64,000 bases of DNA, taken from positions 5,087,501 through 5,151,500 of the forward strand of contig NZ_CP108455.1 of NCBI RefSeq assembly GCF_036241575.1. The letters are read 5' to 3'. Positions 58,806 to 64,000 of this stretch are shown here, piece by piece; the first letter of the stretch is position 1; every line of letters starts with the position of its first letter. Origin of the DNA: Streptomyces sp. NBC_01267. Lineage in GTDB: Bacteria; Actinomycetota; Actinomycetes; Streptomycetales; Streptomycetaceae. Both the position numbers and the translations under genes were made by a program. Below the pieces are notes generated by a model. That model was not told the origin of the DNA. It saw only the letters and a program-made list of their open reading frames with translations, and did no database searches.

Positions 58806-60161
58806 TCAGCTCCCCTCCTCGTCCTGTGCGCGAGGTGCGGCGGGCCGGTGCGGGCTGTGCGAGGGGTCCCAGAAGTGCGGAGGTGTGATGCCGCCCTCAC
58901 CCGCCTCCCACCAGTCCTGGTTCTGTTCGCCCGTGTCGCTCTCCGTCGCTCCCGGCGTGAATGTGCCCGCGCCCGCGTCGGCATTCGTGGCTGCGGCTGC
59001 GGCTGCGGCTGCGAACGGCGAGCCCTCGGGGGCTGGGAAGCCCGGCGACCAGGGCCCCGTGGTGTCCCCCTCGCCGGAAGGCACACCCTCCGGTCCCTCG
59101 TCCTCGCTCTCATCGGGCGCCGGGAGAAGGGCCCGCCTGATCTCCTCGGCGGCCTCGTCCAGTCCGGACGCTTCCAAGCTCCGTACCACACGGTGCACGA
59201 ACACGGTGTACTCGTCCATGTCCGGCTTCAGGCCCACCGCCGCCAGTAGCAGGAGCAACCGATCCGCAACCCCTATTTCCTCCTCGCGGTCCAACGTGCC
59301 TCCTCCCTGGGCGTATCCGTCCCACAGTGGGCCCCCGACGGTCGCTTCGCTCCGTGCGCCCACGGGCGGGACGAGCAGGTGGCGGAAGAGTTCGGGCACC
59401 TCCTCGTCGTTGGCCGCTGCCGCGATCTGGGCGAGCGGGCCGATCATGTCGACCGCCTTCTCGATTTCGTTCTCGTGGCGGGTCAGCCACCACACCACCG
59501 CGCTGCCCGCGCTCTTCAACACGTCGTCACCGAGGTAGTCCCGCTTGTTGCGCTCGTGCTGACGCTCGTACTCCCAGACCTGCTCGTCCTTTCGGAGGTC
59601 GTTCAACTTCCGCAGGCGCTCGCGATCGGCGGGGGCGAGGGCCAGCGTCACATCTGCCGCCTGGGCTTTCACCCGTCCGCCCAGGTCGGGGAGCGGGACG
59701 CTCAGCTCCCCCTGCAGGAGATACTGAGCGAAGCTCACCCGGCCGGGCTCCTCGCGGCGGACGACCTCTATAGCCCGGCTGACGACCGAGGACACGGCGA
59801 GGGCCGGGGAGGCGCCGCCGGAACGGTCGACGTGGTCGAGGACCGGCCTCCACCACACAGTGGCCGAGAAGAGGAAGTCGTAGCCGTCCGCCGCGCTCGG
59901 CAGCGCCGCGTCGACCACCCGCGTCTCCTGGTACGGCTGCTCAGTCGGCGCCGACGGCGGCTCAGGTTCCCCGGACTCGTACGGATCGGCTGACGCGCGG
60001 CTACCGCTGAGGACCGTCATCACGAGCAGCAGGGAGCCCGATGCCGTGACCATGGACATGAAGCCCCACAGCCCCGCCGGCCAGCCCAGGAGGTTTCCGA
60101 GCACTGCCGGTGCGAGGCCGCAGAGAACGACGAACAGCAGGTTGGGAAAGCGGTGTCTCAT
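58806..60161 (-). CDS. Two-TM membrane protein, third gene of the TIR operon
   Basis: A protein of 451 residues. Two membrane segments occupy about 8-28 (LLFVVLCGLAPAVLGNLLG) and 33-53 (GFMSMVTASGSLLLVMTVL). The cytoplasmic remainder has a helical middle part (VSSVVSRAIEVVRREEPG, LRKLNDLRKDEQVWEYERQ) and an Ala/Gly/Pro-rich acidic tail. The middle part resembles the secreted/SPFH-unrelated domain common in streptomycete membrane proteins of unknown role. Its ATG overlaps the stop of the P-loop gene by four bases, so it is an obligatory partner of the system; a membrane-acting role is inferred. Confidence 0.75.
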   Translation of the reverse strand: MRHRFPNLLFVVLCGLAPAVLGNLLGWPAGLWGFMSMVTASGSLLLVMTVLSGSRASADPYESGEPEPPSAPTEQPYQETRVVDAALPSAADGYDFLFSATVWWRPVLDHVDRSGGASPALAVSSVVSRAIEVVRREEPGRVSFAQYLLQGELSVPLPDLGGRVKAQAADVTLALAPADRERLRKLNDLRKDEQVWEYERQHERNKRDYLGDDVLKSAGSAVVWWLTRHENEIEKAVDMIGPLAQIAAAANDEEVPELFRHLLVPPVGARSEATVGGPLWDGYAQGGGTLDREEEIGVADRLLLLLAAVGLKPDMDEYTVFVHRVVRSLEASGLDEAAEEIRRALLPAPDESEDEGPEGVPSGEGDTTGPWSPGFPAPEGSPFAAAAAAAATNADAGAGTFTPGATESDTGEQNQDWWEAGEGGITPPHFWDPSHSPHRPAAPRAQDEEGS

Positions 60162-62143
60162 GGTGTCTCTTCCGTGTTCCGTGGTCCGGCGCCCGCACGC
60201 CCCGTACCTTCCGTGCGGGCGTACTGCGCGTGGTCGATGTGTTGCCAGAAAATGGCGGCGACGGCCGCGCGGGAGGGGTGGCGCGCGATTCCCGCCCAGT
60301 CGCAGGTGATGGCGTAGAGGCGGTGCAGAGAGGCCGCGCGGCCACGCGTCGCACCGACCATCACGCCCAGGGCCGTCTCCCGCGTGCTGTCGTCCGCCAC
60401 GGCGTTCAGCCAGCTACTCACCAGCGGGTTCCAGAGGTCCGTCGGTGGCAGGGAGAAAACCGTCTCCCAGGCCAGGAAAAGGTCCGGCCACGGCGGCGGG
60501 TCCGGTGCCCGGTCGCTCCTCAACAGCTCCGTGAGCAGCCGGAGATGGGGCTCCGCGATGCGCGGCTCCCGACGCGTCCGGTCCCGTAGGCGGTCGATCA
60601 GCAGCCGGTAGAGCCGAGGATCGCGGCCGGCGAGGTCGAGAAGTGCCTCCCGGGCCTCGCGCGCCGCCTCCCCCTTCCGTATGGCTAGGTAGTGGAGTCG
60701 CACGATCGCCTGATCCGGGTGCGTCGCGCCGAGGCTCTGGAGGCAGGCGGTGGTCAGGACACGGACAAGACCGTCCGACAAGGGGCCGGACCTTACGCAC
60801 CCGTACATCCGCCTGCGGAACCACCCTCCGAACCTCTCGTGGCTGAGACCGAGTTCGAGAGCCGCCACGGCTCGCGGGTCGTTGGACGCCCCGGTCGCAC
60901 CGTCCGCCCAGAGGGCCACAAGGTCGAAGAGGTGGTCGGGCCGCCCGACAGCCAGGGACCGCTCGCAGAAGCGGACGACGACGTTCACCCGGTCATCGGT
61001 GGTCAGACCGCGGAGCCCGGCAGCATGGCCGATCCAGTCCCTGAGGTCATCGCGCATCCCGGGGAAGTTCGCCCAGAAGTACGTTCGTACCGCGTCGGCG
61101 TAGGCCAGCCGCCCGAAGCGGAGCCGTCCGTCCGGGTCCCGCTCGATCCCGAGCGTCGCCAACCGCTCCCCGAAATCCGTCCGCGCGAGCTCGGTCGTCG
61201 CCTCTTCCTCGTGCCTCACCGTCCTCATCAGGCCGTGCCACGCCTCGTAGACCGTGTCGGCGCGGGCCTCCTCGAACACCGCCGTCGCGAGAAGCAGGGC
61301 CCGCTCGGGCGCGGTGCGGACCGTGGCCACCTGTTGGCCCACCTCACCGGCACGGTCGGTCACCGCATGCATCGCCTGGTCGAGCCATCCCGCGAAGTCG
61401 GCGCCGAACCGGCCGCTGTCCCGGGCGGACCTCACCAGCCCCGCGAGCCGTGCCAGTTCCCGCATGGGGGAGCGGTCGCACAGGCGCTGAAGACCGGCGC
61501 TGCCCAGGTCCGCGGGGCGAAAGGCCATCCGGTCCATGCGGAGGTACCGGGTGACGACGGCGATGCCCCGGGGGCGCCCCAGCGCCACCGTGTGCGGTTC
61601 GAGGTCCGGTGCATGGGCATGCTCCATGCCTGACGGCAGGACGACGACCATGTGGGCCCCCGCCTCCTGGACTTGTGACCGGCGCGCGGCCAGGCGACGC
61701 TGGACCTTGGCGTACGCCTCCTCGTCGGCGATCCCGGAGAGGTCCAGGAGGAAACGGTCGCCCTCGCCCGGGGCGAGAGGATCCTCGTCCTTGTCCGTGG
61801 TGGGAAGTTCCTCGAACCGGGCCTCCTCCTTGTCGGGGACCCCGTCCTCACCGAGCTCGTGCAGCAGCATGATCGCCGCGGCTCGGCGGCCGCTGCCGGG
61901 CGGAGCCTCCACCAACACCACCGATCCGGGCTTTTCCAAGCGGTCGGCGGCGACGCGGTATCCCATCGGCGGAACGAACCGGTCGGCCAGGCGCACCCGG
62001 TCCTCACGGACGATCCGGAGGGGCTCGACCCCTTTGCGGATCATCCAGTCCGCGCCGATGCCGTAGAAGACGTACTGGTGCCCCTCGCCGTTGTTCACCG
62101 GGCCGCGCGGATCGTTGACGGTGACGCGGTCCTGCTCGGTCAT
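60158..62143 (-). CDS. Degenerate P-loop (STAND-like) protein with N-terminal signalling motif
   Basis: A protein of 661 residues. Residues 9-24 read VNDPRGPVNNGEGHQY, a Gly/Asn-rich motif also present in the neighbouring TIR protein. A P-loop-like EAPPGSGRRAAAI lies at 79-91, with Arg in place of the Walker Lys, and a Walker B-like FLLDLSG is near 130. The rest is an all-helical region with repeat character to the C-terminus. This layout suggests a sensor/NTPase of the STAND kind with a weak or lost ATPase. Start ATG 62143 overlaps the TIR stop (ATGA). The family is not recognised by name. Confidence 0.72.
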   Translation of the reverse strand: MTEQDRVTVNDPRGPVNNGEGHQYVFYGIGADWMIRKGVEPLRIVREDRVRLADRFVPPMGYRVAADRLEKPGSVVLVEAPPGSGRRAAAIMLLHELGEDGVPDKEEARFEELPTTDKDEDPLAPGEGDRFLLDLSGIADEEAYAKVQRRLAARRSQVQEAGAHMVVVLPSGMEHAHAPDLEPHTVALGRPRGIAVVTRYLRMDRMAFRPADLGSAGLQRLCDRSPMRELARLAGLVRSARDSGRFGADFAGWLDQAMHAVTDRAGEVGQQVATVRTAPERALLLATAVFEEARADTVYEAWHGLMRTVRHEEEATTELARTDFGERLATLGIERDPDGRLRFGRLAYADAVRTYFWANFPGMRDDLRDWIGHAAGLRGLTTDDRVNVVVRFCERSLAVGRPDHLFDLVALWADGATGASNDPRAVAALELGLSHERFGGWFRRRMYGCVRSGPLSDGLVRVLTTACLQSLGATHPDQAIVRLHYLAIRKGEAAREAREALLDLAGRDPRLYRLLIDRLRDRTRREPRIAEPHLRLLTELLRSDRAPDPPPWPDLFLAWETVFSLPPTDLWNPLVSSWLNAVADDSTRETALGVMVGATRGRAASLHRLYAITCDWAGIARHPSRAAVAAIFWQHIDHAQYARTEGTGRAGAGPRNTEETP

Positions 62144-62931
62144 CGTTCGTCGGCCGAGCGCCGGCGCTCGCGCTCGAAGCGCTGATGGACCGTACCGCTG
62201 TTGTCGCCCGCCGTGAACTGGAGTCCGGTGTTGTCACCCTGGAAGTGGGGCGCGTTGTACTGAGTCCCCGGACCGGTGTTCACGGGCCCCTGCGGCTCGT
62301 TGACGAAGGTGCCCAGGTCTCCATTGAGGTTTCCGATGCCGCCGCGCACGCGCTGCTCCACGTCGCGCGTCCGCATCCTGGTGTGTCCGACATCCTGGGC
62401 CGACTTCTTGCGGGACTTCGCCGCCGCCCGCTCCCGCGCCGTATGGGCGTCGTGGTCCTCCGCGCCCAGCTCGGGCAGCAGCCGGGCGAGGGCGTCGCCG
62501 AGAGCCGTCAGGTCCGACTCGGCGTTGCGGTGGTCGAACCGCCTGTACTGGCAGTCCGCCAACTCCCGCAGGTCGTCCGGGAGGACGGTGGGGTCGATCC
62601 GTGTGGCCTTTCCGACGAGCACGGGGATCACCAGGATTCCGCGGTCCAGCGCGGTCTGGATTTCACGACGGGTCCAGTCCTGCGCGGCTTCGAGGGCGGG
62701 GCGACCGTCGGCGCCCCGCACCTCCGCCCAGCGCGGGCCGATCACGGCGAGGAGCGCCCCGCACTCCTCCACAGCCCTGACCAGTTCCAGCGGGAAGCGG
62801 TGTCCGAGTTCGATCGAGTTGCTGGCGAAGAAGATCCGCTCGCCGCCGAACCGCCGGGCGAGTTCCCGAGCGATCATGGTCGCTGCGGATTCCTCGTCGC
62901 CTGTGCGGTAGTTGACGAAGACGTCGGGCAT
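62140..62931 (-). CDS. TIR-domain protein with C-terminal Gly/Asn-rich motif
   Basis: A protein of 263 residues. Residues 1-150 are a bacterial TIR domain: DVFVNYRTGDEES, RIFFASNSIELG, LLAVIGPRWAEV and DWTRREIQTALDRG with the likely catalytic Glu (E90) of NADase-active TIRs. A basic linker (165-195) leads to a tail with VNEPQGPVNTGPGTQY (210-225) and two GDNxG units (232-246). The first tail motif matches the N-terminus of the next protein. ATG 62931 follows GAAGGGAA by five bases; a longer frame to 63033 lacks support. Confidence 0.85.
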   Translation of the reverse strand: MPDVFVNYRTGDEESAATMIARELARRFGGERIFFASNSIELGHRFPLELVRAVEECGALLAVIGPRWAEVRGADGRPALEAAQDWTRREIQTALDRGILVIPVLVGKATRIDPTVLPDDLRELADCQYRRFDHRNAESDLTALGDALARLLPELGAEDHDAHTARERAAAKSRKKSAQDVGHTRMRTRDVEQRVRGGIGNLNGDLGTFVNEPQGPVNTGPGTQYNAPHFQGDNTGLQFTAGDNSGTVHQRFERERRRSADER

Positions 62932-63232: not shown

Positions 63233-64000
63233 TCAATTGTGCGCGGGGGCGAGTACCCGTGCCAGCGCCGGCTGCAGATCGCGTACGGCCCGGCTGCTCC
63301 GGAACCGGGAGAGTTCGCGCGCGAGACGCCGGACGTCGCTGTTCACCGTCGCCGAGGGCACAGCCGGCATCACCCCCAGGAGGTCCCTGGCGATCGTGCA
63401 CGCGTGCACGACCTCTCCGGAGGCGGCGTGGGCCAGGGACCTGCGGAAGCCGTACCGGGTGCGAGTTCGCAGCGCGTGCGGCGGGAGGAGACGGCACTCC
63501 CGGTCGAGGACCTCGGCGGCGGCCTTGGGACGGCCGAGGTCGTGCAGGCACCAGCCGGTCGTCATCGCCGCCGGATTGCTCACGTGGGTGGTGCCGAGCA
63601 CGGGCTCGGCCACGCTGCGGGCGTCGTCGCTGTCGAGCAGCTCCCGTGCCCTGTCGAGGCTACGGAGGCAGTCGCGTTCGTCGCCGGCGCGAGCGCGTGC
63701 CCCTGCGCCTCCCGCTGGGCCGCGAGTCCCCGGATGCGCGGCGGGAGTTCGTCGCTCTGGGCCCGGTGGGCCAGGGCGACGGTGCTCGCGGCGTCACCTC
63801 CGTAAAGCGTGACCAGGGCGCGTCGCACGAGCGCGTAGGAACCGAGGTGCGAATCGCCCCCGGCGCGAGCCAGGTCGGCGGCCTCACCGGTCCAGCCCAG
63901 CGCCGCGCTGCTGTCCCCGGCCTCCTGGGCCATCCAGCCGGTGAACTCCGCGAACCGTGACGCGAGCAGGAGTGCGGGGGCCCGAGCGGCGGACGTGGCG
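63233..64000 (-). pseudogene. TPR-repeat protein (regulator C-terminal part), frameshifted and partial
   Basis: The protein enters from the right edge as helical TPR-like sequence (MAQEAGDSSAALGWTGEAA, LGSYALVRRALVTLYGG, IRGLAAQREAQGHALA). Near 63688 it must change frame to continue with AGDERDCLRSLDRARELL and run to the stop at 63233. One missing base would explain this. The TPR pattern is that of the C-terminal half of streptomycete XRE/TPR regulators; the N-terminal part is outside the window. It could be a true pseudogene or a sequence error. Confidence 0.7.

Follow-up and report, generated by a model that had tools for sequence, protein, structure and literature searches.

The window analysed here, a stretch of 64,000 nucleotides from Streptomyces sp. 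NBC_01267 (NZ_CP108455.1, positions 5,087,501 to 5,151,500), carries on its minus strand an operon of three genes, which encode, in order, a TIR-domain protein (62140..62931, 263 residues), an NLR-like NTPase (60158..62143, 661 residues) and an SPFH/prohibitin-like protein with two transmembrane helices (58806..60161, 451 residues). The C-terminal tail of the TIR protein and the N-terminal head of the NTPase bear a common short motif, which is conserved across homologous operons and whose two copies co-vary, with TIR and NTPase tags agreeing better within an operon than between operons. The gene set has the appearance of a switch for immunity or cell suicide whose wiring is a contact between tags, and we consider it probable that it forms an NLR-like signalosome, in which the tag of the sensor would template the tag of the TIR protein at a membrane site organised by the SPFH-type protein. 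The initial annotation of this stretch had the coordinates and order of the three genes right, as well as the four-base overlaps at the TIR–NTPase and NTPase–third-gene junctions.

Conservation of the operon and the shared motif

Homologous loci were collected in two ways. A search of 295 Streptomyces genomes with the NTPase at an E-value threshold of 1e-3, with four candidates per genome scored, was the source of 75 loci, the window's own included, of which 60 had all three genes. An independent scan of named genomes was seeded by the third-gene alignment alone, and the best 80 of its 218 matching stretches yielded 78 loci; in 75 of these best 78 the TIR, NTPase and third genes occurred together, while the TIR or NTPase gene was missing or partial in L136, L147 and L148. 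In total, 135 loci, again counting the window's, carry the three genes on one strand, with a four-base overlap at the TIR–NTPase junction in 122 and at the NTPase–third-gene junction in 108. The named hosts of the third-gene scan are Streptomyces, besides one locus each in Kitasatospora, Streptosporangium and Sphaerisporangium, and an NTPase profile applied at 1e-10 to a class-wide sample matched 25 of 296 genomes, in 11 of 114 genera.

In the window, the TIR motif VNEPQGPVNTGPGTQY (residues 210-225; 62257..62304, minus strand) and the NTPase motif VNDPRGPVNNGEGHQY (residues 9-24; 62072..62119, minus strand) are identical at 11 of 16 positions; the latter lies within a stretch, residues 1-44, for which the predicted local distance difference test (pLDDT) score is below 50. 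When the last 80 residues of the TIR protein and the first 45 of the NTPase were shuffled, none of 20,000 trials matched their alignment score of 64; with the two full-length proteins, 7 of 2,000 shuffles did, so that the whole-protein comparison by itself is only moderately convincing. The likeness is nevertheless genuine, because it is conserved. After removal from the 135 of 15 loci whose NTPase was a duplicate and 6 whose genes were truncated or interrupted, 114 non-redundant operons were left, and a position-specific score placed both motifs above threshold in 109 of them, although the call in L052, one of the 109, looks spurious by eye. The NTPase motif was absent from L034, L041 and L055, and the TIR motif from L061 and L173. 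The VN[ED]P[QR]GPVN[TN]GxGxQY-type motif that the initial annotation had noticed in both proteins is thus a feature of the family, with the rough consensus V-x-x-x-x-G-P-V-[HN]-T-G-x-G-x-Q-[YN], and G19 and G21 of the NTPase copy are among the most conserved positions of that protein.

Conservation and co-variation across homologous operons had been set beforehand as the test of the motif, and it passed on both counts. In a sample of 37 operons whose NTPase cores are less than 60% identical to each other, motif pairs from the same operon shared 8.24 of 17 residues, compared with 6.67 for cross pairs, a value as high being reached in none of 20,000 permutations, which take no account of relatedness among the operons. 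The corresponding z was 8.2, whereas nine control pairs, built from the segments before and after the motif, the TIR domain, the NTPase core, the NTPase C-terminus and the SPFH protein, gave values between -0.3 and 1.6; in these control tests the SPFH protein sequence co-varied with neither motif. Common descent alone would not liken a TIR tag to the NTPase tag of its own operon. Moreover, in L234, L235 and L238 the two partners hold extra motif repeats in step (scores 125, 104 and 96, each reached in 0 of 500 shuffles).

Motif pairing among remote NTPase relatives

Remote relatives of the NTPase retain the plan of upstream partner, NTPase and third gene with different partners, which were classed by a text pattern and manual relabelling of some loci as cyclase-like in 17 loci and as a small helical protein in 7. 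In many of these loci, the tail of the partner and the head of the accompanying NTPase agree in motifs unlike that of the TIR proteins, such as SFSHTGEHGIQAYN with RFSHSGEHGIQAYN in L249 (L249, L250 and L252 being close relatives of each other). Own pairs scored 64.7 and cross pairs 34.9 for the cyclase-like partners (17 loci; 0/20,000 as high), 49.7 and 28.8 for the small helical partners (7 loci; 7/20,000), and 63.8 and 41.2 for the TIR partners of this remote set (11 loci; 0/20,000). A fourth partner type displayed no motif pairing (own 29.7, cross 28.4; 7 loci; 4,787/20,000) and thereby serves as an internal negative control. The own score was reached by at most 5 of 500 shuffles in 12 of the 17 cyclase-like, 9 of the 11 TIR and 4 of the 7 small helical loci, some of these passing pairs (e.g. 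L102) aligning in Ala/Pro-rich linkers rather than in a motif, and the own NTPase head ranked first of 43 in 7 cyclase-like, 4 TIR and 2 small helical loci. P-loop and start calls are rough in these remote loci, and for some of them the head sequence came from open frame that precedes the start as called. Head-to-tail pairing is hence general among the remote relatives, but not universal.

The partners in the 17 loci are likely cyclases, judging from a D...GDG pattern recognised by eye, weak similarity to the cyclase Ma1120 (E 0.95), the UniRef name 'Guanylate cyclase domain-containing' given to several homologues of the L255 protein, and neighbouring PycTM and cNMP-binding genes; those scanned had no cyclase match in Pfam or NCBIfam. 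A Crp-type cNMP-binding gene lies upstream in all three cyclase-like loci tested by Pfam (L066, L067 and L236) and was recognised by eye in others. L066 also has a PycTM gene (PF18967, E 3.1e-18; cNMP_binding E 4.6e-19), the PycTM match of L102 being below the cutoff. The 'small helical' partners were likened to BELL from the description of BELL only. In L236, a cyclase-like partner is combined with a third gene reaching 162 bits against the SPFH profile, and this locus therefore bridges the cyclase-like and the TIR/SPFH types.

Pycsar-like neighbourhoods were encountered in L066, L069, L249, L250, L252, L255, L258 and L236-L242, where the cyclase-like protein often has a C-terminal motif with a match in the STAND protein encoded next to it. 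This hints at a role of NLR-like sensors in switching some of the Pycsar-type cyclases. In L256 (3289-4071 and 4071-6218), the cyclase-like tail and the NTPase head have HGISGGxFxGxV in common, which by eye is RHIM/BASS3-like. L101, L103-L105, L245, L253 and L257 have NTPases (an Arg P-loop was called in six of the seven) beside another small upstream partner, with no detectable pairing.

Features of the three proteins

The TIR domain was matched by PF13676 (TIR_2) at E 4.8e-10, above the cutoff, and the solved structures nearest to it are the TIR domains of SARM1 (E 1.9e-6 with the single sequence, 6.3e-14 with a profile). Glu90 (codon 62662..62664, minus strand) occupies a column that shows no variation among aligned TIRs (26 of 26 and 38 of 38) and that aligns with the Glu of DWVHKEI in SARM1, the catalytic residue of that enzyme; the DWxxxE pattern is kept in the TIRs of 133 of the 135 loci. 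The TIR protein is accordingly expected to be an enzyme of the NAD-destroying kind, with NADase activity. In 23 of the 135 TIR tails (L035, L036, L043 and others, the window's not among them), the paired motif is preceded by an element that by eye is RHIM-like, e.g. GTAVQSRDFTGDV and variants. No counterpart of it was spotted by eye in the NTPase heads that were inspected, and it could tie the TIR protein to other sensors.

The AlphaFold2 model of the NTPase (mean pLDDT 84) consists of an AAA+/STAND core followed by helical repeats, i.e. the nucleotide-binding core and repeat domain of an NLR, while the motif-bearing head is unstructured. Foldseek and VIA matched the model to ORC/Cdc6, the Dark apoptosome and Avs5, and Pfam nSTAND3 was matched in 25 of 40 NTPase relatives, the window copy remaining below the cutoff. 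The Walker A motif is modified to APPGSGRR (residues 80-87; 61883..61906, minus strand), in which Arg replaces Lys. This loss, remarked on initially for the window copy as GSGRR, proved to be family-wide: of 109 relatives, 106 have Arg in the Walker Lys column, the remaining three have T, A or L, and none has Lys, so that the family lacks the Lys of a canonical P-loop. In L038, one of the three exceptions, the sequence is GNGAKS, where a Lys follows at the next position. The Arg in the P-loop points away from ordinary ATP hydrolysis as the driving force of the sensor.

The third gene had been described as encoding a two-transmembrane protein. Two N-terminal transmembrane helices are indeed present, as helices in the model and hydrophobic sequence by eye (residues 6-25, 60087..60146, and residues 29-53, 60003..60077, both minus strand), but the domain that follows them was overlooked: residues 76-216 (59514..59936, minus strand) have the predicted SPFH/PHB fold. 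The likeness to prohibitin, stomatin, HflK/C and the vault shoulder lies in this predicted fold, whereas the third protein differs from these SPFH proteins in its two N-terminal transmembrane helices, its variable C-terminal tail and the absence of Band_7 from the 14 Pfam families that one or more of 40 members hit at E 0.1. A search of solved structures by sequence with the SPFH alignment likewise gave no match. The third protein is a probable membrane scaffold.

Relation to known systems

PADLOC matched none of the three window proteins at E 1, and nothing came near the cutoff among NCBIfam and PADLOC models (ThcB4 at E 0.027 only), in agreement with the initial view that the combination corresponds to no named defence system. 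Among relatives, 7 of 38 TIRs matched the PADLOC model of ThsB, at E 7.5e-9 in the best case, which was not taken as membership of Thoeris. The window TIR has no such match and the three-gene operon has no ThsA-like gene. Matches to OloA (2 of 40 NTPases, best E 4.8e-5) and PDC-S73 (3 of 40, best E 1.4e-4) were not taken as membership either. Pycsar combines a cyclase with PycTM or PycTIR; some remote NTPase relatives adjoin cyclase-like, Crp-like and PycTM genes, as in L066, whereas the window operon is without a cyclase gene and its TIR protein is the direct partner.

The closest parallel is offered by the BASS-type bacterial NLR signalosomes (PMC7889193, PMC8086366, PMC12261475 and PMC9815663). 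In filamentous bacteria, BASS motifs are described as occurring at the N-termini of NLRs and the C-termini of effectors, an association with TIR domains being less frequent (PMC7889193). For BASS3, fluorescent (GFP and RFP) fusions of the motif in Podospora or yeast, controlled by Gln-to-Pro changes, are reported (PMC9815663). The present operon resembles these systems in its adjacent and overlapping genes, in the filamentous actinobacterial host, in a TIR as one of the rarer effectors and in the matching of sensor N-terminal and effector C-terminal motifs, which was found here in 109 of 114 operons with own pairs exceeding cross pairs. It differs from them in an nSTAND3-like sensor with an Arg Walker A, a conserved SPFH-type third protein and an NsdA-like regulator. 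Since motif pairs that include TIR have already been described (PMC7889193), the signalling principle itself is known. No title or abstract among the open-licence papers surveyed describes a TIR–STAND–SPFH operon; the primary BASS study was not among them, so that absence from print is not established.

The inactive-STAND ternary systems (iSTAND, iSTAND2 and TERNS3) have TIR or cyclase outputs and are built on vWA–MoxR pairs, and Band7-like domains are named as scaffolding effectors in the same papers (PMC7159879 and PMC8195603). The window operon shares with them a STAND protein with an altered NTP-binding motif and, in multicellular bacteria, the link of such a protein to TIR or cyclase outputs, but the coupling is by short motifs and not by EAD or death-like domains. 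No vWA or MoxR domain was found among the 12 window genes scanned by Pfam, a scan that did not extend to the flanks of relatives.

Proposed mechanism and alternative explanations

The conserved and co-varying motifs, together with the failure of the three genes to match a described system, support the interpretation given in the initial annotation, in which the shared motif was likened to amyloid-type signalling pairs. The NTPase would act as a STAND-type sensor whose P-loop is modified and whose arm consists of alpha-helical repeats, and the third protein as a membrane-anchored SPFH-type scaffold that tethers, controls or restrains it. Upon a trigger, probably infection or membrane stress, the sensors would cluster, and their disordered N-terminal motifs could then stack into a cross-beta seed, which would serve as template for the corresponding motif in the TIR tail. 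The TIRs clustered in this way would consume NAD+ or make an NAD-derived signal, leading to growth stop or cell death. Expression of the operon is probably under the control of the NsdA-like HTH/TPR protein encoded upstream. The conserved operon, the predicted folds, the conserved and specifically co-varying motifs, the retained TIR glutamate and the exchange of Lys for Arg come from computation, whereas the contact between the motifs, their amyloid state, the NADase output, the trigger, the defence role and the parts assigned to the SPFH protein and the regulator are inferred.

The co-variation reveals matching, not the structural form that the matching takes. Instead of stacking on each other, the motifs might be tags that dock on a third surface, for instance a chaperone or the SPFH assembly, or they might pair in a beta-clamp heterodimer of non-amyloid form by which the TIR protein is kept inactive until release. 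SPFH proteins form membrane assemblies, and the SPFH gene accompanies the pair in nearly all of the best third-gene loci (75 of 78). However, two ligands of one groove need not be so specifically alike, homotypic stacking predicts both the identity of the tags and the extra repeats shared in L234, L235 and L238, and the SPFH sequence follows neither motif; we therefore regard docking or clamping as unlikely. Far less plausible still is recurrent gene conversion, which could keep two repeats in neighbouring genes similar without any functional matching. The genes are adjacent, and identical codons at shared motif residues are slightly more frequent in own pairs (166/305, 0.54) than in cross pairs (4,366/8,875, 0.49; 76 of 3,000 permutations as high), but this excess is small while the residue matching is strong, so copying of DNA contributes little at most. 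The lack of matching in the fourth partner type and the strong conservation of G19 and G21 in the NTPase also argue against it.

A different question is what the signalosome would serve. Instead of defending against phages, it could serve filamentous actinobacteria as a cell-death switch in development or stress, under regulation by the NsdA-like protein, a reading to which we give some weight while doubting it. An NsdA-like gene lies upstream in 128 of the 135 loci, of 62 close loci, not all of them from different strains, 33 have sequence homologous to the ychF region of the window in the flank beyond the third gene, and a tblastn search for signs of mobility gave no match in 50,697 phage records and only remote ones in 5 of 72,556 plasmid records. 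Against this stand the patchy presence of the system, since only 79 of the 295 Streptomyces genomes have an NTPase match of whatever strength at E 1e-3 and many of the matches are as low as about 30% in identity, and the fact that TIR and STAND modules are typical of immunity.

More than 100 natural operons are at hand in which the tag of a probable immune effector tracks that of its sensor, and motif specificity, a hard question in amyloid signalling, becomes directly testable by swaps. An SPFH-type membrane protein and an Arg-P-loop STAND also join the parts list of bacterial NLR-like systems. More speculatively, and with somewhat less than even confidence, Arg-P-loop STAND sensors with SPFH-type partners may be rewired among outputs by exchanging the effector along with a matching self-templating motif pair, in the manner of plug and socket, with the identity of the signal residing in the motif and the sensor lacking an ordinary ATP switch. 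The outputs would then comprise TIR NADases, cyclic-nucleotide cyclases with PycTM/Crp genes and small helical killers. The data suggest that NAD-consuming and cyclic-nucleotide immunity use one sensor chassis joined by exchangeable motifs.

Genomic neighbourhood

The NsdA-like gene belongs to the conserved neighbourhood of the operon; in the 7 loci without a recorded copy, three had no upstream sequence and four had no such gene. In the window, tblastn with four homologues delimited an incomplete gene for an HTH/TPR regulator of the NsdA family, located upstream of the TIR gene (63239..64000, minus strand), which runs past the window end and whose homology switches frame near 63.69 kb. NsdA-like matches in more than one frame were seen in 6 of the 128 loci, the window included. 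The homologue in L226 was assigned to the NsdA family by NF053720 (E 1.3e-52).

The initial annotation had placed the operon beside a defence island. This is true of the window, where a block at about 44.0-58.6 kb contains type I restriction-modification genes, ISAzo13-type and DDE transposases, a NucS-C-like gene, an integrase and a weak HEPN match below the cutoff, but the association looks incidental. As the ychF region lies near the operon in about half of the close loci, the block has apparently been inserted between ychF and the operon in the window strain, probably as a later event, and the island was dropped as informative for the operon. ARAGORN found no tRNA in positions 40000-64000 of the window. 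Integrase-region sequence was also observed on the third-gene side of the operon in L073, L076 and L123, and the site may thus be an integration hotspot.
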